30,930 bases of DNA, from positions 1-30,930 of the IMG/VR virus record IMGVR_UViG_3300022072_000082, one strand, 5' to 3'. The translations under genes and the position numbers were made by a program. Under the pieces are notes generated by a model. That model saw only the letters and a program-made list of their open reading frames with translations. It had not been told where the DNA came from and did no database searches. Within the stretch, counting starts at the first letter, position 1. Each line of letters starts with the position of its first letter. Of this stretch, positions 2,574 through 23,086 are shown piece after piece. The DNA is from a virus.

Positions 2574-2845
2574 TAGTACCCTAATTCTTTTTTAATTTGC
2601 TCACTTATAACCTCTTTGCGGTGTTTACGTTTTTCACCTCTTAGCTCCTCGTTATTTAACTGGGCTTTACGGTTAGCTCGTAGGATAGTCTCTACTGCTT
2701 TGTAATGCTCTGCAATAATCAGGGCGGATAGTACGTTAATTCCGTAGACCTCTTGCAAGGCTTTGCGTATTAATTTTTTAAAATTGTCTCGAGTCTCAGG
2801 GTAATCTCTGAGCAGCTGCTCTACTTGTTTAGTTGCGTTTTTCAT
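2573..2845 (-). CDS. Hypothetical helical phage protein
   Basis: 90-aa charged, fully helical-looking protein with a Lys/Arg-rich second half (RANRKAQLNNEELRGEKRKH). The first half (KQVEQLLRDYPETRDNF) is predicted to be amphipathic. I do not recognise a family with confidence. The basic character could allow nucleic-acid binding, but there is no diagnostic motif. Its start overlaps the stop of the DnaA-domain gene by 4 nt, and its stop overlaps the following gene, so it is co-translated within the leftward replication and recombination operon. Confidence 0.55.
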   Translation of the reverse strand: MKNATKQVEQLLRDYPETRDNFKKLIRKALQEVYGINVLSALIIAEHYKAVETILRANRKAQLNNEELRGEKRKHRKEVISEQIKKELGY

Positions 2846-3306
2846 TTTATAAATTGGATTATTTTGTTATAGTCTCTTTGCATTAATTTGTCACTTTGTA
2901 AAAGGTCTGTTATTTTGTCTATCGCGTGTAGAACGGTAGAGTGGTCTTTGCCTCCGATATAAGCTCCTATTTCTTTTAAAGTAGATGAGGTATTTTGCTT
3001 AGATAGGTAGCAGAACATATGTCGAGCGTCTACCAAGTTACGAGGGCGTTTAGTACCTCTTATATCCTCTTTGGTTTCGTTGTAGTACATTGATACTATC
3101 TCCATTATTCGCTCAAAGTATAGCGGCTCTCCGTTGCTCATTTGCATAGTAGTACCCAGGTTATGCTTATTTCGCATACTTTCAATCCTTTTATCAATAT
3201 AGCCCCTATATTTTAAAGCCTTCTCGTAATCTGCGATAAGCATACCCATAGCGATTATAGTTTGCTTAGCCTCTCCCAGCTCTCTCTTCATTACTCTCTC
3301 ACTCAT
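2842..3306 (-). CDS. DnaA domain IV (DNA-binding) protein without ATPase domain
   Basis: 154-aa protein whose C-terminal half (about 66-154) is the helix-turn-helix domain with which bacterial DnaA binds DnaA boxes. The signature loop and helix are clear at 119-133, GGKDHSTVLHAIDKI, close to the canonical GgrDHSTVlHA motif. It is preceded by VDARHMFCYL and KEIGAYIG, which match the domain's upstream helices. The N-terminal 60 residues are helical and unlike the DnaA AAA+ module, which is absent. It may bind the phage origin, interfere with or recruit host replication, or act as a regulator. It overlaps both neighbours by 4 nt in the leftward operon with the exonuclease and ERF genes. Confidence 0.82.
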   Translation of the reverse strand: MSERVMKRELGEAKQTIIAMGMLIADYEKALKYRGYIDKRIESMRNKHNLGTTMQMSNGEPLYFERIMEIVSMYYNETKEDIRGTKRPRNLVDARHMFCYLSKQNTSSTLKEIGAYIGGKDHSTVLHAIDKITDLLQSDKLMQRDYNKIIQFIK

Positions 3307-3911
3307 ATTAACGTCTTTATATATTCCCTTGAAATTTTAACTCTCTCTATTAATTTTTCTATCACTTCTATATCGTATTCTATGTCAAAAGTCTTTATCC
3401 GATATTTACTTTCTACCTCTGAGTAGTCTTGTGGCTCTTCGTAGCTTAAATGCTCAGGAGTGTTCATAAGTACGTAGCAAAGTGTAGCTTTACGTTTACC
3501 AGTTAAGTGCATATATACCATTAATTGGTAGTAGTAATCTGAGTTTGGTATCTCGTCTTCGAATAGCGGGAAGGTAAAACAATCCCAAGAGCTTTTAATA
3601 TCTACTATTGTGTCCTCGAGCATTACGTCAGGCGTTCCACAAAAATACTCATCCTCAAAAAACTCTTTGTTTTTTATAGCGAATAACCATCCAAGCTCTG
3701 CGGCTGCGTAGTCTATTGCTGAGTCCTCAACTGCGTTACCTTTATCTAAGTACTTGCTTTTAATTTGCTTACGTATGCCGTAAAGCTCAGACTTTAACCA
3801 CTCTTGTAGGTGGCTTTTGGTAGTTTGACTTAACACCTCGCCTTTGGAGCGAGGGTTAGTCATTAGTTTGCCAGCCGATGAGGCTCTTTGCTTAAATTCC
3901 TTTAATTGCAT
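3303..3911 (-). CDS. RecB/lambda-exo-like PD-(D/E)XK exonuclease for phage recombination
   Basis: 202-aa nuclease likely to resect double-stranded DNA ends for single-strand annealing. The restriction-fold core is visible: Glu62 in KGNAVEDSAID, Asp95 in CGTPDVML, Asp104-x-Lys106 in IVDIKSS, and the QxxxY element Gln129-Tyr133 in YQLMVYMHL. That last element marks the RecB/Cas4/YqaJ exonuclease group. The length fits this group. It overlaps the ERF annealing gene by 20 nt, the usual exonuclease plus annealase pairing (compare lambda exo/bet and Erf systems). This supports a recombination role rather than a Cas4 adaptation role, as no CRISPR genes are present. Confidence 0.8.
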   Translation of the reverse strand: MQLKEFKQRASSAGKLMTNPRSKGEVLSQTTKSHLQEWLKSELYGIRKQIKSKYLDKGNAVEDSAIDYAAAELGWLFAIKNKEFFEDEYFCGTPDVMLEDTIVDIKSSWDCFTFPLFEDEIPNSDYYYQLMVYMHLTGKRKATLCYVLMNTPEHLSYEEPQDYSEVESKYRIKTFDIEYDIEVIEKLIERVKISREYIKTLI

Positions 3912-4398
3912 CCTCGTATTTTTGAGCGTTTACGTTACTTATTGAATAATGCTCTCTTATTTTTGCAATCGTTATACCTTTAGCAAGAGCAGCCTTCCAG
4001 GTATTATCGTTTTCGTTAATCCAAGGCTTAGTACTTTTTACCGCTTGGCTTGCTGAGTTAGCGTCATCGTCTTCAGCTTGTAAGCCTAAAAGACTTTGTA
4101 GGGTGTAGCGTCTATAATAAGTAACCGCCGACCCTAACTTTTGTGGGTCATCCATATTAGGTAAAGCTATTGAACTGGTAACGCTTTCGCCTGAGTCGGT
4201 GTCTATAATTTGAGAGCTTACCTCGCCATTTAAAATAGGCTGCAATAGTAGTAGACCATTCTTTTGTAGTAATGGCTCTGTATGTCTTAAAAGCCCGTTT
4301 ATATCAAAGTACTTAGATTTGAAAAAAGGGTTTGTTTCGTCTTTGGAGATAGCTCCTATCTCTTTTTTAACGGCTGCAAGTTTATTGTATATTGTCAT
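3892..4398 (-). CDS. erf: ERF-family single-strand annealing protein
   Basis: 168-aa recombinase that should anneal complementary single strands exposed by the neighbouring exonuclease. ERF signatures are clear: NPFFKSKYFDINGLL (23-37), then QKNGLLLLQP, and the conserved block KLGSAVTYYRRYTLQSLLGL followed by QAEDDDAN (to about residue 113). A linker and a small C-terminal helical region (about 125-168, KAALAKGITIAKIREHY) follow, as in other ERF proteins. It is the first of the two-gene recombination pair and lies downstream of the operator-controlled promoter at 4870-4897. This implies that recombination functions are expressed with the early leftward genes. Confidence 0.88.
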   Translation of the reverse strand: MTIYNKLAAVKKEIGAISKDETNPFFKSKYFDINGLLRHTEPLLQKNGLLLLQPILNGEVSSQIIDTDSGESVTSSIALPNMDDPQKLGSAVTYYRRYTLQSLLGLQAEDDDANSASQAVKSTKPWINENDNTWKAALAKGITIAKIREHYSISNVNAQKYEDAIKGI

Positions 4399-4424: not shown

Positions 4425-4703
4425 TTAATGATTGTTTAGGGAGGTGGCTTCGGCTGCCTCTTTTTGTTGGTAGTAGTCTGCTAAGGTCTTGCCGTTATAG
4501 TTGGCGTTACGTATAGCTAATTTTATTATCTCGGTCAGAGCTGGCTCGTTAAAGTTGGTAATCTTACGCTCTCCGCTTATAACGGTATTGAGGGTATGTA
4601 CGCTAATTAAATGTCTCTCAGATACTACCTGGCGTTCTGCTCGAGTAGTATTAGCTTTTATAGCTCTTGTTAATTGTTTGCCTAAATATGGTTCGAATTT
4701 CAT
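4425..4703 (-). CDS. Candidate HTH DNA-binding regulator
   Basis: 92-aa mostly helical basic protein. Residues about 22-47 (ERQVVSERHLISVHTLNTVI, then SGERKIT) fit the pattern of a helix-turn-helix in small phage regulators, with a 'hliSvhTLntVisGerk' recognition segment. The C-terminal part is a second helical region (LADYYQQKEAAEA). The ATG overlaps the stop of the 50-aa gene by 4 nt, and both lie in the transcript started at the operator-bearing promoter at 4870-4897. This protein is therefore a good candidate for the factor that reads the shared operator, which would make it autoregulatory. Family membership and target are inference; a structural or replication role is possible. Confidence 0.5.
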   Translation of the reverse strand: MKFEPYLGKQLTRAIKANTTRAERQVVSERHLISVHTLNTVISGERKITNFNEPALTEIIKLAIRNANYNGKTLADYYQQKEAAEATSLNNH

Positions 4704-4852
4704 AACTTCTTAGTAATTTTGGTTAAAGTCTCTACCTGGTCAGACCAGTAACAATCTTTGGTAGCTTGAAAGTTTTTTTCTGCTGAGGTAATTTTCTCCT
4801 CAAGGCATATCGCTACCCAGCTACGTTCTTCTAAGTTTAAATCTATTATCAT
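4700..4852 (-). CDS. Small acidic hypothetical protein, first gene of the operator-controlled operon
   Basis: 50-aa protein beginning MIIDLNLEERSWVAICLEEK and ending in a charged helical segment; not matched to any family I know. The ATG at 4852 lies 17 nt downstream of the -7 element of the operator-bearing promoter, and its TGA overlaps the next gene's ATG (ATGA junction). The promoter-proximal position, the coupling to the next gene and the absence of any alternative frame in this stretch make it a probable real gene. Confidence 0.6.
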   Translation of the reverse strand: MIIDLNLEERSWVAICLEEKITSAEKNFQATKDCYWSDQVETLTKITKKL

Positions 4853-4869: not shown

Positions 4870-4897
4870 CAAATATAGTATTTATTGTTAATACAAG
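4870..4897 (-). promoter_or_regulatory. Leftward promoter with 17-bp operator (copy 1)
   Basis: On the leftward strand the -7 element TATATTTG (4870-4877) is preceded immediately by the 17-bp imperfect palindrome GTATTAACAATAAATAC (4878-4894) and then by a -33-like CTTG overlapping its far edge. The element matches the Bacteroidetes consensus TAnnTTTG, and the spacer is filled by an operator-like repeat of the form GTATT-N7-AATAC. Two further promoters in the window have the same arrangement. The transcript would begin about 10 nt before the ATG at 4852. Confidence 0.75.
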
Positions 4898-4908
4898 GTT
4901 ATTTTATT

Positions 4909-5076
4909 TTAACTTGTACGTTTATTTTTTTCTTTTAATTTTAAGTCTATAAGTTCAAGTATGCAGACAAAGCCTATCACAAAATTAATAGTTCCGTAAA
5001 CCTTGTAGTCGCAAATTGCGACCATAAAACCAAGTGGCATTAATATAGTTCCTACTTTTAATATTTGTTCTTTCAT
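4909..5076 (-). CDS. Small two-helix membrane protein
   Basis: 55-aa protein with two hydrophobic helices (about 7-22, VGTILMPLGFMVAI, and 28-42, YGTINFVIGFVCIL) joined by a short CDYKVY loop and followed by a Lys-rich tail. The probable topology is both ends in the cytoplasm. It begins 4 nt after the upstream 61-aa gene and is third in the short operon started by the operator promoter at 5452-5480. Its stop is only about 15 nt before the -33 side of the next operator promoter. Function is unknown; small membrane proteins in early phage operons often affect host envelope or superinfection, which is only a possibility here. Confidence 0.58.
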   Translation of the reverse strand: MKEQILKVGTILMPLGFMVAICDYKVYGTINFVIGFVCILELIDLKLKEKNKRTS

Positions 5077-5080
5077 AATT

Positions 5081-5266
5081 TTAGTATAAAGTGTAATTTA
5101 ATCCTGATAATTCTAATTCTTTTTCGATATTGTATAGCATATCTTCGCTTTCGTAAATGTCCTGGTATTCGTCATAGCTAAAGCCGAGCTTTTTACTTGT
5201 TTTTTCTAACCACTCAGAGCCAGCGGTAAAGTCTTTAGGCGCGAAGGTGATTTGTATTCTGTTCAT
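5081..5266 (-). CDS. Small acidic hypothetical protein
   Basis: 61-aa strongly acidic soluble protein (SYDEYQDIYESEDMLYNIEK in the centre), beginning with a short basic stretch MNRIQITFAPK. I do not recognise a family. Acidic DNA-mimic behaviour is conceivable given the Asp/Glu/Tyr-rich middle, but nothing shows this directly. Its start overlaps the stop of the previous gene by 4 nt, and the membrane-protein gene follows after 4 nt, making it the middle gene of a three-gene operator-controlled operon. Confidence 0.55.
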   Translation of the reverse strand: MNRIQITFAPKDFTAGSEWLEKTSKKLGFSYDEYQDIYESEDMLYNIEKELELSGLNYTLY

Positions 5267-5433
5267 TTTACTAAATAATAAGAGTTAGATGTTGCTAAAA
5301 AATTAAACCAGTCAGCATCGGTATTATGCTCAAGCTCCTCGAAGGTAGCTTTTGAAAACTGCGAGGTGCGGTACTTACTATCCTTTACTCTTATAGTGAA
5401 GGTGCGGTCTTTTTGATTTGCTTTTACGTTCAT
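5263..5433 (-). CDS. Small hypothetical protein, first gene of an operator-controlled operon
   Basis: 56-aa protein beginning MNVKANQKDRTFTIRVKD. An in-frame ATG also exists at 5454, but it lies within the -7 element of the promoter at 5452-5480 and so cannot be in the transcript. I therefore place the start at 5433, giving the same promoter-to-start distance (17-22 nt) as at the other two operator promoters. The short protein looks beta-rich at the start and helical at the end (FEELEHNTDADWFNFL). No family is recognised. It is coupled by a 4-nt overlap to the next gene. Confidence 0.6.
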   Translation of the reverse strand: MNVKANQKDRTFTIRVKDSKYRTSQFSKATFEELEHNTDADWFNFLATSNSYYLVK

Positions 5434-5451
5434 TTCTTTGTTATTGTACTG

Positions 5452-5480
5452 CAAATATAGTATTAAACTTTAATACCAAA
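5452..5480 (-). promoter_or_regulatory. Leftward promoter with perfect 17-bp palindromic operator (copy 2)
   Basis: The leftward strand reads TTTG (5477-5480), 17 bp of perfect inverted repeat GTATTAAA-G-TTTAATAC (5460-5476), then TATATTTG (5452-5459). Both promoter elements match the Bacteroidetes consensus (-33 TTTG, -7 TAnnTTTG), and the whole spacer is a palindrome with 8-bp arms. A bound dimer would directly block RNA polymerase. This is the best promoter in the window and drives the 56-, 61- and 55-aa genes. Confidence 0.85.
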
Positions 5481-5851: not shown

Positions 5852-5859
5852 TATATTTG
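5852..5859 (+). promoter_or_regulatory. Rightward promoter, -7 element TATATTTG
   Basis: A perfect Bacteroidetes-type -7 element faces the replication block. A T-rich stretch sits at the -33 position (no clear TTTG) and there is no GTATT-N7-AATAC operator. Initiation would fall near 5864-5868, placing the structured RNA element at 5866-5958 at the 5' end of the transcript. Confidence 0.6.
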
Positions 5860-5865
5860 CAGAGA

Positions 5866-5958
5866 TATTAACCGTTAGGAGGTTATTAATTAAAGATATT
5901 TAAAGACCAAGCTTTAGCAGTAGTCCTAACCTACTTCTAAGGTAAGGTCTTTTTTTTT
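5866..5958 (+). ncRNA. Structured leader or small RNA with predicted pseudoknot
   Basis: About 93 nt between the TATATTTG promoter and a T-tract with no open reading frame starting in it. The 3' part folds into a long hairpin: 5902-5908 pairs with 5946-5952 (AAAGACC/GGTCTTT). Then 5912-5917 pairs with 5937-5942 (one G-U), and 5919-5923 pairs with 5931-5935. The apical loop is UCCUAAC (5924-5930). That loop is perfectly complementary over 7 nt to GUUAGGA at 5874-5880, predicting a long-range pseudoknot. The upstream strand also contains AGGAGG (5877-5882), so pairing would hide this Shine-Dalgarno-like sequence. It may be a free small RNA or an attenuating leader for the replication genes. Confidence 0.6.
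5902..5958 (+). terminator. Intrinsic terminator in the leader of the replication block
   Basis: Three stacked stems (7, 6 and 5 bp, separated by small internal loops) are followed by a run of nine T residues (5950-5958). It lies upstream of the first replication gene rather than after a gene, so transcription into 5998-12031 requires read-through, antitermination or another promoter. Confidence 0.72.
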
Positions 5959-6883: not shown

Positions 6884-7797
6884 TAAAGTCAAGCAGCGAA
6901 ATTTTAGACCAGCTTATGAGCCTCCACAAAAACGGATTACCCGAGGGAAGCAGAATAGGCTTAAATTCTTTTGATAGTCAATTAACATTTGTTAAAGGTG
7001 GGTCTACAGATATAACGGGCTACCCTTTCTTCGGTAAAAGCCTTTTTTTAAAGGAGATAATGATGGGTCTTACTTTAAACCAAGGTTGGAGGCATTGCGT
7101 TTATATGCCTGACGATGGCAGCGATACAGAGGTAATATCTAACCTAATGCATAAACTAACTGGCAAGACATTTCAAAAGGACTATCCTAACACAATAACC
7201 GAGAAGGAAATAAGTAAGTATAGTACTCAACTTTGCGATAGCTTTAAGTTTATCTCCGCAGAGCATAATATAGAGCCTGAAGCCTTTTGGAACTACGCAA
7301 AAGAGAATAAATGCACCTCAGCAGTTATAGACTCCTGGAACTACTTAGCACACAAAGGCGAGCCAACTAACGCAGACTATTTACGTAAGATACTTTCTCT
7401 ACGTAACCGCTTTATGGATATAAATAAAATGCACTCGTTTATAATTATTCACCCTAAAAACCCTGACCCGAAACAAGTAAAAGACGGCTCAGTAAAGAAG
7501 CCAAGCGTTTACGATTTGATGGGAGGCTCTGAGTGGAATAACAACGGTAGAAATATAGTAGTAGTTCATAAAGAGTCAAAAGACAACCACCAACCGTATA
7601 AGATAACCGTAGATAAAGTTAAGCCTAAATACTATGGAGAGCTTGGAGAGTGCGTATTGCATATTGACTGGGCGAGCCAAAGGTTTTACGAGTTTGACCA
7701 TATCCACAACACAAAGAAATACGCCTACGCTACTGAAGAGATAGTGATAGACCCAATTAAAGATATATTCGCAGTAACTAACGACCAACCTTTTTAA
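6880..7797 (+). CDS. Replicative helicase (RecA-fold, Twinkle/T7 gp4-like, no primase domain)
   Basis: 305-aa RecA-type hexameric helicase that should unwind the phage replication fork. The Walker A motif is GYPFFGKS (47-54). The Walker B strand is TSAVIDSW with Asp151, and HPKNP follows at 191-195. MGGSEWNNNGRNIVVVHK (214-231) corresponds to the ssDNA-contacting and H4 region of the Twinkle/gp4 group ('GG..w.N..d....v.r'). There is no zinc finger or TOPRIM primase region, so priming must come from elsewhere. The protein is shorter than DnaB and lacks its N-terminal domain. It overlaps the loader-like gene by 4 nt. Confidence 0.82.
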   Translation: MIKSSSEILDQLMSLHKNGLPEGSRIGLNSFDSQLTFVKGGSTDITGYPFFGKSLFLKEIMMGLTLNQGWRHCVYMPDDGSDTEVISNLMHKLTGKTFQKDYPNTITEKEISKYSTQLCDSFKFISAEHNIEPEAFWNYAKENKCTSAVIDSWNYLAHKGEPTNADYLRKILSLRNRFMDINKMHSFIIIHPKNPDPKQVKDGSVKKPSVYDLMGGSEWNNNGRNIVVVHKESKDNHQPYKITVDKVKPKYYGELGECVLHIDWASQRFYEFDHIHNTKKYAYATEEIVIDPIKDIFAVTNDQPF

Positions 7798-8912: not shown

Positions 8913-9179
8913 ATGGAAAAAACAGAAAAAGTATTCGCAGACGGTTTTATGTTCAAAATGAAACCCGATTCTCCTGAGTGGGTAGTAGGTAGCTTGAGCC
9001 TAAAAGCAGACGAGGCAATAGCCTTTATTCAAAAGAACACCGATAAAGGTTGGGTAAACCTAAACGTTAATATAGGCAAATCAGGCAAGCCTTACGTAGA
9101 GCTTGACACTTGGAAGCCAACGCAAGCGGCTGCAACTTCTCCAGACCCTGAATTTAATTCCGAAGGGCTACCCTTTTGA
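8913..9179 (+). CDS. Possible phage single-stranded DNA-binding protein
   Basis: 88-aa protein with a beta-rich body (VFADGFMFKMKP, EWVVGSLSLKADEAIAFI, GWVNLNVNIGKS, KPYVELDTW). A Pro/Ala/Ser linker and an acidic tail ending in EFNSEGLPF follow. The extreme C-terminal Leu-Pro-Phe preceded by acidic residues recalls the Asp-Asp-Ile-Pro-Phe tip of bacterial SSB that recruits partner proteins. With its location among replication genes, this makes an SSB analogue plausible. It is shorter than a full OB-fold SSB and I cannot confirm the fold. The stop overlaps the TTG start of the next gene. Confidence 0.5.
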   Translation: MEKTEKVFADGFMFKMKPDSPEWVVGSLSLKADEAIAFIQKNTDKGWVNLNVNIGKSGKPYVELDTWKPTQAAATSPDPEFNSEGLPF

Positions 9180-10528
9180 TATTACAAGAGATATATTTCG
9201 ATAAGAGCATTCGAGATTATGCTCTTAAATTAACAAACAACACCCAAGAAGCCGAGGAGTTAGTCTCTTTGGCTTTTGACATTTGTAGCCATAAGCCGCC
9301 TAAAGAAAATATGAAGGGGTATTTTGCAATAGTAATGCGGAATCAATGGTTAAAAAAATGTAATAAGACAGACCCGTACTGGGCAATAGAAGAGAGCGAG
9401 AGCGAGGATATAGAAGACGTACTCTCTAAGATGAGCCATTACAACGCTAATCTAATTCGAGCCGTTTATAACGGAGATACTCTTATCAAAATACACAACG
9501 AAACCTCTATAAGCTACCGCAGCATTAAAAGCGACTACAAGAAAGCAAAAAAAGAATTTAAGATAATGTACGAGAACAAAACCAAAATAGCTATCGTTAT
9601 GAGTACGGTTAGCGGGGTAAGCTATCACCGCTTAATGATGCCACTCGTTAGACTGAGCCAGGACTACGGAATAGAAGTAACTTGCTTAATTAATAACGCT
9701 GACGATTTTTTAGAGAAGCTTGACGGAGTAACCCACGTTATTTTTAATCGTAATATCTCCGAGCTTATGAAGCCTGAAGAGACTATCTTAATTTTAAAGG
9801 CAAGAGGTATTAAAGTTATCTGCGATGTAGACGATTACTGGGTATTACCTAAAGGACACCCTTTGCAATTATATTACTCGAGGTCTAATATGGCTAAATG
9901 TATTTTAGCAAACATCAAATTTGCGGACGTAGTATGGACTACCACAAAGATTTTAGCGGAGAAAATTAGACCCTATAACAAAAACGTAGAGGTAATTAAA
10001 AACGCTATTGACCCTAACGAAAAACAATTTGCTTACGAAGATTTGTCTTTAAAATTTGATACTTTCTTTTACTCAGGAGGCAGCACCCACTTAAAAGATT
10101 TAAAGCTATTAGGTAACGCTTTCGATAACGAATATTTAACCGTTAAAAGCCCGAGAGTACCTAAGCGAATGAGTCCAATACTTCAGCAAGTTAGCAGCAT
10201 ACAAGAATATGCGACAGAGTATCAGCATTGTGGTATATGCATAATACCTTTGAGAGATAACCTATTTAACCGATGCAAGAGTGAGTTAAAGATGATAGAG
10301 GCTGGACACTTTGCCAAGCCCGTAATGGTCAGCAACGTAATGCCCTACAACCTACTCGCTACTAATAGCAATAGCCTGAAGGTACAAGGTAATGACTGGG
10401 CGGCTGCAATAAAGAAAATAAAAGGTAACTATAATATGCAGATAGAGTTAGGACTAAAGCTAAAAGAAGACGTTAAGAGCAAGTATGATATAGTAAAAGA
10501 AAACGCAAAAAGACTTCAAACATTATGA
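9176..10528 (+). CDS. Fusion of an ECF sigma-like domain with a GT-B glycosyltransferase domain
   Basis: 450-aa protein in one uninterrupted frame, starting at TTG 9176 (overlapping the upstream TGA). Residues 1-130 look like a compact sigma-70/ECF factor. Region 2 is NNTQEAEELVSLAFDI plus MKGYFAIVMRNQWL; region 4 is RAVYNGDTLIKIHNETSISY, then RSIKSDYKKAKKEF. From about 137 a glycosyltransferase begins (KIAIVMSTVSGVSYHRLMMP). It shows CDVDDYWVLPKGHP at 216-229 and the EX7E-like donor-site block CKSELKMIEAGHFAKPVMVS (367-386). An internal Met131 (nt 9566) sits at the domain boundary and could start a separate glycosyltransferase. The sigma part may redirect host RNA polymerase; the acceptor of the sugar (DNA, protein or surface glycan) is unknown. 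Confidence 0.68.
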   Translation: MILQEIYFDKSIRDYALKLTNNTQEAEELVSLAFDICSHKPPKENMKGYFAIVMRNQWLKKCNKTDPYWAIEESESEDIEDVLSKMSHYNANLIRAVYNGDTLIKIHNETSISYRSIKSDYKKAKKEFKIMYENKTKIAIVMSTVSGVSYHRLMMPLVRLSQDYGIEVTCLINNADDFLEKLDGVTHVIFNRNISELMKPEETILILKARGIKVICDVDDYWVLPKGHPLQLYYSRSNMAKCILANIKFADVVWTTTKILAEKIRPYNKNVEVIKNAIDPNEKQFAYEDLSLKFDTFFYSGGSTHLKDLKLLGNAFDNEYLTVKSPRVPKRMSPILQQVSSIQEYATEYQHCGICIIPLRDNLFNRCKSELKMIEAGHFAKPVMVSNVMPYNLLATNSNSLKVQGNDWAAAIKKIKGNYNMQIELGLKLKEDVKSKYDIVKENAKRLQTL

Positions 10529-10677
10529 AATATACAATAATAAAAAGATACCGAGACGCTGAGAGCGGAGCAGTATTTAATTTAGGCGAACAGATAGAGC
10601 TTAAAGACCAAAAGAGAATTAAAGAACTAAAAGCAAGCGGGTGCATAGAGTCAGTAGCCAAGCGTAAAAAGAAATGA
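10525..10677 (+). CDS. Small conserved phage protein
   Basis: 50-aa protein (MKYTIIKRYRDAESGAVFNL...) with an ATGA overlap to both the upstream and downstream genes. It has the pattern of very small beta-rich phage proteins, 'y.v.....d..sG..f..Ge.ie..d...i..l...g.i', which resemble an SH3-like or KOW-like unit, and a Lys/Arg-rich C terminus (SVAKRKKK). Related small proteins are common near packaging and head genes of phages, with no defined role. Overlaps on both sides support reality despite its length. Confidence 0.6.
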   Translation: MKYTIIKRYRDAESGAVFNLGEQIELKDQKRIKELKASGCIESVAKRKKK

Positions 10678-10859
10678 GCGAGGAGCTTGAGAGTCAAATA
10701 AGGGTCATAGTCAAGCAACAAGGCGGAGGTATAAGCCCGCACCTTAGAGCAGAGTTCCAAAGGCTTTGCCAAGAGGATTTCGCCTACCGACCTGACATTA
10801 CTTGCGGTAAGTGTATATATAAACATAGCGTTAAGCTATTTGATAAGTATTTAAAATGA
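10674..10859 (+). CDS. Small hypothetical protein with CxxC motif
   Basis: 61-aa protein (MSEELESQIRVIVKQQGGGI...). A C-terminal TCGKCIYKH (Cys-x-x-Cys...His) could bind a metal ion together with Cys32 in LCQED or bind nothing at all. The N-terminal half is helical. No family is recognised with confidence. Its start overlaps the upstream stop (ATGA) and its stop overlaps the ParB/methyltransferase start, placing it directly in the DNA-modification and packaging run. Confidence 0.58.
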   Translation: MSEELESQIRVIVKQQGGGISPHLRAEFQRLCQEDFAYRPDITCGKCIYKHSVKLFDKYLK

Positions 10860-12031
10860 AACTAACAGAAATAAAATCAAACCCTAATAACCCCAGGGTA
10901 ATTAAAGACCATAAATTCGAGAAGCTAAAAAAGTCTATTAGCGAGTTCCCTAAAATGATGGAGCTTAGACCTATGGTAATAAACGAAGATAATATAGTCT
11001 TAGGCGGTAATATGCGTTTAAAGGCGTTAAAAGACTTAGGATATAAAGAAGTACCTGAAGAGTGGGTAAAGCGAGCCAGCGACCTTACAGAGGAGGAAAC
11101 GAGGCGTTTTATAATTGCGGACAATGTAGGCTTTGGAGAACACGATTGGGAGATGCTTGCTAACGAGTGGAATACTGAAGAGTTAGAGGATTGGGGATTA
11201 GAGGGGTTTCCGTTTGAGGAGGTTACAGAATTAGAGGCAGAAGAAGACGACTACACCGAACCCGACAATATACAAGTAGATGTAGTATTAGGCGACCTTA
11301 TAGAGATAGGAGAGCATAGGTTATTATGTGGGGATAGTACAAACTCAGACCAAGTAGCAAAGCTAATGAATGGACATAAGGCAGATATGGTATTTACAGA
11401 CCCTCCATATAAAATAGAAACAGAAGGCGGATGTAAAGGAAGTATCGGTCAAGGATTAAAAAAACAAGGAGATAGTATTGAATTTATATCAAACTTTGAA
11501 CCAACTGAATTTTTACAAGTGCTGCCATTAATATTTCACAAGAATAAACTAAACGCATATATATTTTGCAATAAAGAACTATTGCCAGATTATTTAGTAT
11601 GGGCAAGAGATAGTGGTTATTCTTTTAATGTTCTTATATGGAAAAAGCCAAATGCTATTCCAATAGGAGATTCACATAGACCAGATATAGAATATTTGCT
11701 TTTATTTAGAAAGTCCGCAATATGGAATAATGGACTAAAGGATGTTAATTATTCAAGATGTTTAGAGTTTGGTAGAGAAAGTGGATTACATCCAACAATG
11801 AAGCCGATAGAATTAATTGCTAATGAAATGAAGATTAGTTCAAATGAGAATAGCTTAGTATTTGATTTTTTCTTAGGCTCAGGCTCTACAATGGTTGCTT
11901 CACACCAACTTAAACGCAAGTGTTACGGAATGGAATTAGACCCTAAGTACTGCCAAGTTATAATAGATAGAATGAGCAAACTTGACCCTTCTTTAGAGGT
12001 AAAGATTAACGGAGTAGTTTATAATAAATAA
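10856..12031 (+). CDS. ParB/Srx-domain plus beta-class DNA methyltransferase fusion
   Basis: 391-aa protein. Residues 1-95 are a ParB/sulfiredoxin-type domain (IKSNPNNPRVI, then NIVLGGNMRLKALKDLGY at 46-63). After an acidic linker (124-137) comes an amino-methyltransferase that uses SAM to methylate adenine-N6 or cytosine-N4. Motif IV DPPY is at 182-185, HPTMKP at 312-317, and the SAM-binding motif I DFFLGSGST at 337-345 followed by GMELDPKYC. Motif IV before motif I is the beta-class order. The target recognition region between them (about 186-310) determines specificity, and its codon use differs from the flanks. Such fusions are common phage orphan methyltransferases that protect phage DNA. 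No partner restriction enzyme is seen. Confidence 0.88.
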   Translation: MKLTEIKSNPNNPRVIKDHKFEKLKKSISEFPKMMELRPMVINEDNIVLGGNMRLKALKDLGYKEVPEEWVKRASDLTEEETRRFIIADNVGFGEHDWEMLANEWNTEELEDWGLEGFPFEEVTELEAEEDDYTEPDNIQVDVVLGDLIEIGEHRLLCGDSTNSDQVAKLMNGHKADMVFTDPPYKIETEGGCKGSIGQGLKKQGDSIEFISNFEPTEFLQVLPLIFHKNKLNAYIFCNKELLPDYLVWARDSGYSFNVLIWKKPNAIPIGDSHRPDIEYLLLFRKSAIWNNGLKDVNYSRCLEFGRESGLHPTMKPIELIANEMKISSNENSLVFDFFLGSGSTMVASHQLKRKCYGMELDPKYCQVIIDRMSKLDPSLEVKINGVVYNK

Positions 12032-21363: not shown

Positions 21364-21558
21364 CTAAGCAAATAGCCGAGCTACAAAGTTATCGTACTCG
21401 GCTTCTATGCTGGTTTTATTAGTTAAAGTAGTTTTATATTTTGAGTCTTTGTAGGTTATAGTAATCCTTAGACTATCTAAACGCTTTACGTACATCTCTA
21501 CGAAGCAATCCTCAAGAGCGGGTATAAACTCGCTGAGGTTTTTAATCTCTATCTTCAT
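21364..21558 (-). CDS. Small hypothetical protein
   Basis: 64-aa protein (MKIEIKNLSEFIPALEDCFV...) with alternating strand and helix. Two earlier ATGs, at 21600 and 21597, are in frame, but starting there would overlap the upstream gene by about 55 nt; ATG 21558 gives a 17-nt overlap and a better N terminus. No family is recognised. It is the last gene of the leftward accessory block and its stop codon is immediately adjacent to the tape measure stop, leaving no spacer between convergent genes. Confidence 0.5.
   Translation of the reverse strand: MKIEIKNLSEFIPALEDCFVEMYVKRLDSLRITITYKDSKYKTTLTNKTSIEAEYDNFVARLFA
21374..21403. terminator. Hairpin at the tape measure / accessory block junction
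   Basis: Perfect 7-bp stem AGCCGAG (21374-21380) with CTCGGCT (21397-21403) just past the tape measure stop, lying within the convergent small gene. Neither side has a good T-tract, so it is at best a weak or factor-assisted bidirectional terminator. Confidence 0.35.
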
Positions 21559-21769
21559 AAGTTTCTTTGTAGTATTGTTGACCGCAGTTATCTTCATCAA
21601 TCATTGGACTTTGATTATTATAACCATTATGCCAAGCGTCTATCTTCTGCTGTATGTCCATTTCTTTGGCATCTTTATACGCTTGTAACATATCATTACC
21701 GATAAAGTACTGCATCCTTTGAAGTTCACTAAAGAACCAATCGACTGCTGTTTGTTTTTTATTGCTCAT
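21542..21769 (-). CDS. Small phage protein, paralogue of the adjacent gene
   Basis: 75-aa protein beginning MSNKKQTAVDWFFSELQRMQ and continuing with a helical QAYKDAKEMDIQQKIDAWHN segment, then an acidic tail. Proteins with the 'KQTAVeWl...a.e.EkqQi..Aw..G' pattern are common in flavobacterial phages, with no known function. It is similar along most of its length to the upstream 56-aa gene, indicating a tandem duplication. The stop overlaps the following gene by 17 nt. Confidence 0.65.
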   Translation of the reverse strand: MSNKKQTAVDWFFSELQRMQYFIGNDMLQAYKDAKEMDIQQKIDAWHNGYNNQSPMIDEDNCGQQYYKETYEDRD

Positions 21770-21770
21770 A

Positions 21771-21941
21771 TTATTTTTTTTTAGTTAATCCATCTTTCCA
21801 ACCTCGCATATATTCTGCGTGATTCTGCTGCTTCTCCATTTCTTTGGCTTTGTTATATAAATCTCTAATTAAAACATCCATATCTCTTTTTTGTAATTCT
21901 TCAATTAACCATTCCACTGCCGTTTGTTTTTTATTGCTCAT
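21771..21941 (-). CDS. Small phage protein, paralogue of the adjacent gene
   Basis: 56-aa protein beginning MSNKKQTAVEWLIEELQK and containing LYNKAKEMEKQQNHAEYMRG, ending in a Lys run. The start overlaps the stop of the preceding leftward gene by 3 nt. It lies one base from the paralogue at 21542-21769, and the first ten codons of both are nearly identical at nucleotide level, so the duplication looks fairly recent. Function is unknown; both are short, helical and charged, and could be small regulators or subunits of one complex. Confidence 0.62.
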   Translation of the reverse strand: MSNKKQTAVEWLIEELQKRDMDVLIRDLYNKAKEMEKQQNHAEYMRGWKDGLTKKK

Positions 21942-22138
21942 AATTTTTCTATTTCTTTTTTAACTTCTCTCCAGTATGCAGAATAATTTGTGTAAACAAG
22001 AACTTCCTCAACTAAAATCAATGCGTTCTTAATGGCTATTGAAGTGCAAAGTAATTCGTTTCCACACTCTGTATCTTCATCCATTAAAACCACCCTAAAT
22101 TGGTTTACTAAATCTTTTGCTTTTTCTTTTGGTGTCAT
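21938..22138 (-). CDS. Small helical phage protein
   Basis: 66-aa protein beginning MTPKEKAKDLVNQFR and ending YWREVKKEIEKL, with a Cys-containing middle (DTECGNELLCTSIAIKNALI). The pattern 'mTpKEKAkeLv..f.......ALi.v.eil......YW.evK.EIekl' recurs in small proteins of flavobacterial phages and prophages; no role is established. It overlaps both neighbours by 3-4 nt, as expected for a coupled accessory operon. Confidence 0.65.
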   Translation of the reverse strand: MTPKEKAKDLVNQFRVVLMDEDTECGNELLCTSIAIKNALILVEEVLVYTNYSAYWREVKKEIEKL

Positions 22139-22308
22139 AAATCTATCTGTTCATTTAATTCCATAATTGCATCATCAATTGTACTTTGGTGAAATCCTAT
22201 GCACTTCATTAAGTTGGTAAAGGTTTCAAGAATTTCTGTTGCGTTCAAATTGTCTTCTTTTGTTTCGATGGAGTACGTAGCCCCGTAATGTTTAATTGTG
22301 ATTGTCAT
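22135..22308 (-). CDS. Small hypothetical protein
   Basis: 57-aa protein (MTITIKHYGATYSIETKEDN...) with two N-terminal strands followed by two helices (ATEILETFTNLMKCIGF; STIDDAIMELNEQI). ATG at 22308, stop overlapping the next start in an ATGA junction. Small proteins of this shape recur in Bacteroidetes phages without known function. The lytic transglycosylase gene ends 9 nt upstream of its start, so the two are probably on one transcript. Confidence 0.6.
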   Translation of the reverse strand: MTITIKHYGATYSIETKEDNLNATEILETFTNLMKCIGFHQSTIDDAIMELNEQIDL

Positions 22309-22316
22309 TTTTTTTA

Positions 22317-22739
22317 TTATTTTATATTTGATTGGGTATATTTTTTTACTTTATTCCAATATTGCAGCGTTTGGGGTATATTCTTACCATTATAACCTCC
22401 GTTCCAAGTCCTCGCTATCTGCTCATCGCTTGCTCCTTTTAAATGTGAGCGTAGTATATTAAACATCTGAATAGACTTAGCCTTACTCCATCGGTCTTTT
22501 AGCTTAAAGCTATCTTTGCCAAGTAATCTATTAACCTCTCTAACCATTATAGGGCGTATTTGCAAGCAGCCTACGGCATCTTCTTTGCAATTATAAGCCA
22601 ACGTATCGCCTCCGCTCTCTACTTGTATGATAGCAGCTATTAGAGGGTCTTGTATTATAGGCTCTTCCACTTTATCGTACCACATAGAAGCGGTACAAAA
22701 AAAGCTAAAAATCGGGAATATTAAAAGTGTATATTTCAT
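22317..22739 (-). CDS. Exported lytic transglycosylase (SLT type)
   Basis: 140-aa muralytic enzyme that cuts the MurNAc-GlcNAc glycosidic bond of peptidoglycan. An N-terminal signal or anchor (KYTLLIFPIFSFFCTAS, 2-18) should export it without a holin. The catalytic Glu41 with Ser42 is in IIQVESGGDT; the substrate-binding GCLQIRPIMV (57-66) and ARTWNGGYNG (109-118) match SLT motifs. Cys51/Cys58 could form a disulfide in the periplasm. It is separate from the holin/amidase cassette and is encoded in the leftward accessory block behind an intrinsic terminator. It may therefore act at entry, superinfection or envelope remodelling rather than only at lysis. Confidence 0.85.
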   Translation of the reverse strand: MKYTLLIFPIFSFFCTASMWYDKVEEPIIQDPLIAAIIQVESGGDTLAYNCKEDAVGCLQIRPIMVREVNRLLGKDSFKLKDRWSKAKSIQMFNILRSHLKGASDEQIARTWNGGYNGKNIPQTLQYWNKVKKYTQSNIK

Positions 22740-22743
22740 AATT

Positions 22744-22768
22744 AAAAAGGGGAGGTTTTACGCTCCCC
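22744..22768 (-). terminator. Leftward intrinsic terminator between two accessory genes
   Basis: On the leftward strand a 6-bp G+C-rich stem, GGGGAG (22763-22768) and CTCCCC (22749-22754), has an 8-nt loop and is followed by five T residues. It separates the promoter-proximal 84-aa gene from the transglycosylase, so only part of the transcripts from the operator promoter at 23058 should reach the downstream genes. Confidence 0.75.
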
Positions 22769-22780
22769 GTAGTTGGTTAT

Positions 22781-23035
22781 TTATCTTACAATTTTACTTG
22801 CAGTAATTGTAGGAGCCATTGAATAACTATCGTACCTTACGTATTCTGTATTATCGTAAATATTTATTTTTTTGCTAAAGGTTTCAGTACCTTTAAAACG
22901 CTCAAAAGTTGCAGTTTTTGCAGTTCTTTTAGTGCAAATAAACATAGGCTTTAAATCGCTATCTCCTATAAATCTCATTTCGTATACGCTACCTACTTCA
23001 AATGTGCTTCCTGTGTTTGTGTTTGTGTTTTTCAT
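22781..23035 (-). CDS. Small hypothetical protein, first gene of the accessory block
   Basis: 84-aa protein beginning MKNTNTNTGSTFEVGSVYEM, then predominantly beta strands (LKPMFICTKRTAKTATFERF; VRYDSYSMAP). The pattern 'f.iG..Y......d......iv..Rt.ktvtf' is shared by small proteins in Bacteroides/Flavobacterium mobile DNA, function unknown. It is the only gene between the operator promoter (23058-23086) and the terminator at 22744-22768, so it should be the most strongly expressed product of this block when the operator is free. The start is 22 nt from the -7 element. Confidence 0.6.
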   Translation of the reverse strand: MKNTNTNTGSTFEVGSVYEMRFIGDSDLKPMFICTKRTAKTATFERFKGTETFSKKINIYDNTEYVRYDSYSMAPTITASKIVR

Positions 23036-23057: not shown

Positions 23058-23086
23058 CAAATATAGTATTACTTTTTAATACGCAA
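23058..23086 (-). promoter_or_regulatory. Leftward promoter with 17-bp operator (copy 3)
   Basis: The leftward strand reads TTGC, then the 17-bp inverted repeat GTATTAAAAAGTAATAC (23066-23082), then TATATTTG (23058-23065). Operator placement and spacing are identical to the promoters at 4870 and 5452, about 18 kb away. It drives the 84-aa gene and, past the terminator, the transglycosylase block. Confidence 0.78.

Follow-up and report, generated by a model that had tools for sequence, protein, structure and literature searches.

Here, we report that a DNA record of 30,930 bases from a virus (hereafter the window, i.e., the whole stretch of DNA analyzed) carries three leftward promoters, P1, P2, and P3, in which a symmetric 17-bp site occupies the spacer between the -33 and -7 elements. 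This site is probably the operator of a dimeric phage protein, most likely the 92-amino acid predicted helix-turn-helix protein reg92, which would repress the three promoters by blocking RNA polymerase. Since related phages keep the site while the promoter and the surrounding genes change, it is, as far as sequence comparison goes, most likely where a small regulator of the phage docks, which would switch several groups of genes together. The record contains genes of a tailed phage, i.e., portal, large terminase (by tblastn), and SLT lysozyme-like and amidase proteins, together with promoters of the Bacteroidetes type TAnnTTTG, and it probably comes from an uncultured Bacteroidetes phage.

Three leftward promoters with a putative operator in the window

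The -33 motif of promoters of this type is TTG or TTTG. At P1, the -33 element TTTG (5477..5480, minus), the operator GTATTAAAGTTTAATAC (5460..5476, minus), a 17-mer with perfect 8-bp arms, and the -7 box TATATTTG (5452..5459, minus) follow each other directly, so that the minus strand reads TTTG-GTATTAAAGTTTAATAC-TATATTTG. P2 reads CTT-GTATTAACAATAAATAC-TATATTTG on the same strand; its operator (4878..4894, minus) has 5-bp consensus arms and lower symmetry than that of P1, its -7 box is at 4870..4877 (minus), and its -33 TTG (4894..4896, minus) shares the first base of the operator, the palindrome thereby overlapping the TTG by one base. At P3, the operator GTATTAAAAAGTAATAC (23066..23082, minus) is flanked by the -7 box TATATTTG (23058..23065, minus) and a TTG (23084-23086, minus). 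The distance from TTG to TATATTTG is 17 bases at P1, 16 at P2, and 18 at P3, which means that the palindrome is fixed relative to the -7 box and that it is the -33 TTG that shifts by a base. Transcription presumably starts at these sites. TAnnTTTG is the -7 consensus reported for Flavobacterium psychrophilum sigma-A (PMC9723704), and TATATTTG agrees with it at all three promoters.

The first-pass annotation had described GTATT-N7-AATAC beside TATATTTG at two leftward promoters, with a perfect palindrome of 8-bp arms at 5460-5476. Both descriptions are correct (4870-4894 and 5452-5476 for the promoters); the number of promoters is three, P3 at 23058-23082 having been missed together with the likely binder reg92. 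A search of the window finds exactly three perfect GTATT-N7-AATAC palindromes, all on the minus strand and all abutting TATATTTG. When the window was resampled 1000 times with a first-order Markov model, the palindrome by itself occurred with a mean of 0.107 and a maximum of 2, and the palindrome followed by TATATTTG did not occur at all. Written in the more general form GTAT-N9-ATAC, the window has one site per promoter, three in total.

The gene content of the two neighboring operons is as that annotation had it. P1 is followed by a 56-amino acid ORF (5263..5433, minus) and further small ORFs (5081-5266 and 4909-5076, minus). The first gene after P2 is a 50-amino acid ORF (4700..4852, minus), and the operon continues with reg92 (4425..4703, minus), an ERF single-strand annealing protein (3892..4398, minus; PF04404, 1.4e-23), a YqaJ/RecE-like exonuclease (3303..3911, minus; phrog_5715, 1e-56), and a DnaA C-terminal-domain protein (2842..3306, minus; PF08299, 3.3e-24). 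P3 precedes an 84-amino acid ORF (22781..23035, minus) and an SLT-domain, lysozyme-like protein (22317..22739, minus; PF01464, 2.5e-5); the whole P3 cassette (21364-23035, minus) lies reversed among rightward structural genes and has other first genes in relatives. Elsewhere in the window, a 450-amino acid ORF (9176-10528, plus) has a sigma-like N terminus (weak, phrog_1740, E 0.037) fused to a glycosyltransferase (phrog_7162, 5.5e-48), a layout also found in a 450-amino acid ORF of the relative L273, and another gene (10856-12031, plus) combines a ParB-like N terminus and an N6/N4 DNA methylase domain in one protein.

A rightward -7 box TATATTTG at 5852..5859 (plus) has no operator and serves as an internal control. 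Just past it lies a 99-base leader (5860-5958, plus) with a 5' hairpin followed by an intrinsic-terminator hairpin and T9 (z -3.3). The 7-nt loops of the two hairpins, GTTAGGA and TCCTAAC, are exactly complementary and would form a kissing loop. The pairing covaries in relatives, e.g., ATTGAGG/CCTCAAT in L270, with four of the seven loop-loop pairs changed on both sides among five distinct sequences. Rfam gave no family match to the leader. Given its place before the replication operon, the leader may act in attenuation or antitermination, or it may be a small RNA. Two copies about 800 bases apart, each after its own TATATTTG, are present in L271 (record G031; 4466-4563 and 5279-5379), and their loop pairs differ (GTTAGG/CCTAAC vs AGTGA/TCACT), as if they were two orthogonal versions. 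Different leaders follow the corresponding rightward -7 box in G003 and G138, where, by eye, interleaved complementary stretches resemble H-type pseudoknots; in G138, GTGATACATT and AATGTATCAC are interleaved with GGTATAAGGGTAGG and CCTACCCTTTTATACC.

Conservation, spacing, and position of the site

A scan of viral contigs for the exact pattern found 41 loci (43 sites), and reading of the flanks assigned 31 sites to the group of the window and 12 to unrelated sequences. When the left arm of the pattern was reversed as a control, 21 loci (23 sites) were found in the whole viral collection, many of them also promoter-like, and a start codon was nearby in 15 of these sites as compared with 34 of the 43 sites of the exact pattern. 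The raw count as a proof was dropped, since a control that also matches makes it weak on its own, and we therefore relied on relatives selected by homology. A nucleotide search of phages with P1 returned chance-level matches only.

Briefly, 19 loci were picked by homology to reg92, not by the operator, and 2.5 kb upstream were scanned. All 29 TATATTTG boxes on the regulator strand of these loci carry the arms, except one that is cut by the contig end, where just TAATAC is visible. Fifteen P1 and 18 P2 sites were recovered with the pattern GTRT-N9-AYAC, a tally that ignores the -7 box and that a fully decayed operator would escape; P1 could not be judged where the contig ends early (L056, L058, L059, and partly L057). 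The P1 operator is kept in 15/15 sites, with arms of 7-8 bp throughout: GTATTAAAGTTTAATAC abuts TATATTTG, GTATTAAATATTAATAC lies one base farther from TATATTTG, and GTATTAAAATTTAATAC lies two bases from TATTTTTG, making three cores, three distances (offsets 0, 1, and 2), and two -7 boxes. The left arm of P2 is GTATT in 18/18; six sites have AATAC as the right arm and 12 have AACAC, which makes P2 regularly less symmetric than P1. For P3, nine loci were reached via the downstream SLT gene; the left arm is GTATT in all nine, and the right arm is AATAC in seven and AACAC in two, both of the latter with altered -7 boxes.

The relative L273 was retrieved solely via the leader RNA beside the rightward promoter, i.e., neither by the operator nor by the regulator. 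A reg92 relative is encoded at 6891-7187, and the locus has GTATTAATTTTTTATAC in front of TTTATTTG and GTATCACTAATTAATAC in front of TATATTCG, i.e., two operators with intact arms, each next to a changed -7 box. A palindrome drifting in relatives beside a constant -7 element had been named by the first-pass annotation as the case that would speak against an operator; we see the opposite, a palindrome that persists through changes in its core, in the -7 box, and in the distance between them. Judging from the relatives compared, it is the operator that outlasts the -7 box, not the reverse.

With a reg92 profile, more distant relatives were found, at about 35-41% identity. The conserved core in these wider relatives is GTAT-N9-ATAC, the N7 form that had been taken as the core being the window's own (GTATT-N7-AATAC). 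GTAT-N9-ATAC-N0-3-TATATTTG is present in 20/31 reg92-bearing records, and the backwards pattern is present in 0/31; the 11 records with no exact match include many that are fragments or have a displaced form. The same pattern was found in 0/18 exonuclease relatives with no detected reg92, the 18 being 20 other records minus L006 and L025, which had been chosen by the site itself.

The spacing between the two half-sites was counted in 34 reg92-bearing records (637,927 bases) with the -7 box disregarded. Nonredundant intergenic matches to GTAT-Nk-ATAC number 21 at k=9 vs 0-6 (mean 1.6) at the other values of k from 2 to 17, and the genic matches in the same records have no peak at k=9 (eight matches). 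Intergenic GTAT-N9-ATAC was found 0 times in 56 regulator-less relatives (393,825 bases); please note that these loci are fragments and that their regulator-less status comes from tblastn with the window's reg92, which a diverged copy could escape. A fixed 17-bp dyad in noncoding DNA is the trace to be expected of a symmetric protein dimer, which presumably binds there.

The position of the site relative to the -7 box is less strict. In relatives, the operator slides by 0-3 bases. For the dyad GTAY-N9-RTAC near TATATTTG in reg92-bearing records, offsets of -20 to -17 occur 21 times, positions across the box (-6/-3) eight times, of which GTATATATTTGCAATAC is an example, and downstream positions twice. 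The dyad is present at none of 54 nonredundant TATATTTG sites of regulator-less relatives, and it is absent from the rightward promoters of these phages, including 5852-5859 in the window. More than one operator at a promoter is found in G002, G008, G023, and G026: G002 has two abutting 17-mers at one promoter, and three promoters have three half-sites with a 13-bp period and a shared middle half-site. Such abutting or chained sites are confined to some distant relatives. Operators across the -7 box and the abutting pair of G002 would suit a blocking protein. The comparison gives good support to the earlier proposal of a shared operator in the polymerase footprint, as the site is kept in homology-chosen relatives, slides by 0-3 bases, and is a strict 17-bp dyad.

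The candidate binder and competing explanations

The best candidate for the operator binder is reg92, which occurs with the site. AlphaFold2 models the protein (with 34 relatives; pLDDT 90.7) as a helix-turn-helix plus a long helix, with predicted helices at 9-18, 21-30, 35-42, and 53-90. Nine residues are invariant in 34 sequences, and five of them (S34, H36, T37, N39, and R46) lie within or just past the third helix. The mean frequency of the top residue in the predicted recognition-helix region (31-43) is 0.80 as compared with 0.51-0.63 elsewhere (19 nonredundant rows), so in this alignment a near-fixed recognition helix accompanies a near-fixed half-site.

The family matches of reg92 are weak, yet they point to regulators. 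Among 34 homologues, phrog_1124 (transcriptional regulator) is matched by 12 (best 9.4e-5) and phrog_4583 (transcriptional repressor) by six, and the Pfam matches are scattered and weak, with LacI in one (0.0035). The sole PHROG match of the window's own copy is phrog_27371 (E 0.017). For reg92 there is also a weak profile match to the PurR helix-turn-helix (1pru, E 0.052), and its fold weakly resembles those of XRE and lambda cI (Z 4-5). Foldseek with the model returned no match below E 0.001, Pfam HTH_3 had no match in the window, and reg92 had no match in 50,697 phage records. A genome scan gave a single short match, 60% over 25 residues, in a Bacteroidetes MAG (L199). A 201-amino acid form of the regulator, with an extra C-terminal part of about 110 residues, is encoded in L074 (988-1593) and L158 (4588-5190).

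The link between reg92 and the operator is a correlation within one clade, confounded by descent and by other genes shared among the records. It is therefore conceivable, though rather unlikely in our opinion, that the operator is genuine but is bound by a protein other than reg92, either a regulator of the host, the DnaA-domain protein, or some other small protein of the phage; the sigma-like gene is also common to the clade, leaving room for other binders, and the 50-amino acid product of 10525-10677 weakly matches an Arc-like repressor (E 0.0077). Relatives of the ERF protein and the exonuclease, as well as some of the DnaA-domain protein (L105, L118), are found in records where the site is missing, whereas reg92 has the regulator-type matches, the helix-turn-helix model, and the invariant recognition region. 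An activator of MerR type, whose dimer in the spacer would re-align the -33 and -7 elements and switch the promoter on, would explain why the site is placed between both boxes and why promoters in L004 and G002 (before ERF) have the site without a TTG at -33. We consider it improbable, because the 16-18 bases from TTG to TATATTTG in the window, the four-helix, wingless reg92 model, and the slide of the site by 0-3 bases, even across the -7 box, which a register-sensitive activator should not tolerate, argue against it.

The free position of a site whose symmetry is undiminished fits a blocking protein and speaks against both a register-dependent activator and an extended -7 box. The latter belongs to the reading of GTATT...AATAC as promoter consensus, e.g., as an extension of the -7 box or as the sequence recognized by the phage sigma-like protein (9176-10528). 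Such a reading would account for the near-constant distance at which most sites lie from the -7 box and for the retention, at 60-66% identity, of a gene with a sigma-like N terminus in these phages; it is nonetheless very improbable given the twofold symmetry, the strict 17-bp spacing, the sliding, and the persistence beside changed -7 boxes, and given that TATATTTG is used without the dyad at 54 of 54 sites in relatives without the regulator and at the rightward promoters of the same genomes. Finally, near-identical promoter blocks before different genes mean that copying does occur, and the repeated site might be a recent copy of one promoter that moved with mobile cassettes and has no binding function. 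This is scarcely credible, since cores and flanks differ among the copies while the arms stay (the three P1 cores are all palindromic) and since the spacing specificity holds across reg92 proteins only 35-40% identical.

Proposed control and comparison with known systems

In the repressor model that we favor, a reg92 dimer would sit on GTAT-N9-ATAC in the spacer beside the -7 box of P1, P2, and P3, and with the spacer covered, host RNA polymerase would be blocked. Expression of the leftward genes would then be limited by the occupancy of the three promoters by reg92, which, being made from the P2 operon, would also shut its own promoter. From the symmetry we infer an order of affinity, in which P1 (most symmetric) would be bound tightest and P2 (least symmetric, before the regulator) weakest. 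Leftward genes, which are probably early, would in this way be shut off or timed. Integrase or resolvase (PF00589, PF00239) was found in 0/19 records, possibly fragments, which makes timing or shut-off during infection likelier than a role in lysogeny.

The gene that follows varies more than the promoter block does. From phage to phage, nearly the same block is followed by unrelated first genes, and a recognizably similar first gene, beginning MIRTFTQNETTY / MTRTFTQNETTY, is found after two different promoter blocks. That the blocks stay while the first gene changes suggests plug-in cassettes under one control. Tentatively, the operator-promoter block may be a portable control unit with which one short regulator co-ordinates dispersed accessory cassettes, although we rate the odds of this as somewhat less than even. 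If it is so, genes swapped behind any block, even in the late region, would gain the same control at once, and the shared operator blocks offer an explanation for the swapping of small accessory genes without loss of control.

What the system has in common with classical phage repressors is a symmetric site that overlaps the polymerase footprint of several promoters, three in the window, with clade-wide conservation and strict dyad spacing. In lambda, the small helix-turn-helix proteins CI and Cro act at PR and PL on twofold symmetric operators of about 17 bp that lie over the promoters. The likeness is in the symmetric operator of that length over a promoter, the small helix-turn-helix candidate, and several promoters probably under one protein, and the N-domain of lambda cI is a weak structural match to the reg92 model (Z 4.4, 3.5 Å over 61 residues). 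The window differs in its Bacteroidetes-type -33/-7 promoters, its one operator per promoter, and its lack of a divergent cI/cro pair; no sequence relation was found at the level tested. Given the single operator at each promoter, a search of the 19 records (possibly fragments) that turned up neither integrase nor resolvase as lysogeny genes, and a regulator whose family matches are weak, we do not class the system as lambda CI/Cro. Likeness to LacI/PurR consists of the weak 1pru profile match, which is not significant, and a fold match of Z ~4.2 over 41-42 residues; unlike these proteins, reg92 has no ligand domain.

MerR-family operators have a palindrome in the spacer between the promoter boxes, and so has the window. 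Here, however, the spacers of 16, 17, and 18 are not overlong, in relatives the site is displaced by 0-3 bases or crosses the -7 box, and in place of a MerR winged helix the monomer model of reg92 has four helices, no wing, and a long last helix. Compared with the Bacteroidetes sigma-A promoter, the -7 boxes of the window fit the consensus TAnnTTTG reported for F. psychrophilum (PMC9723704), and the palindrome is an addition. The nearest named phage by exonuclease is Nonlabens phage P12024L, which has the ERF-exonuclease pair in common (47-54% identity); neither reg92 nor the operator was found in it. Our searches of open-access papers turned up no earlier description of an operator with its regulator in a Bacteroidetes phage.

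With its short, defined site, a small candidate protein whose predicted recognition helix is near-fixed, natural variation in the symmetry, spacing, and number of sites, and rightward promoters as a built-in control, the system opens the timing of phage genes on -33/-7 promoters to direct testing, and reg92 with its operator could serve as a compact orthogonal repressor in Bacteroidetes genetics. Among known systems, this one is, on the comparisons made here, a probable further case of the classical promoter-overlapping phage operator, unusually broad in its natural variants.
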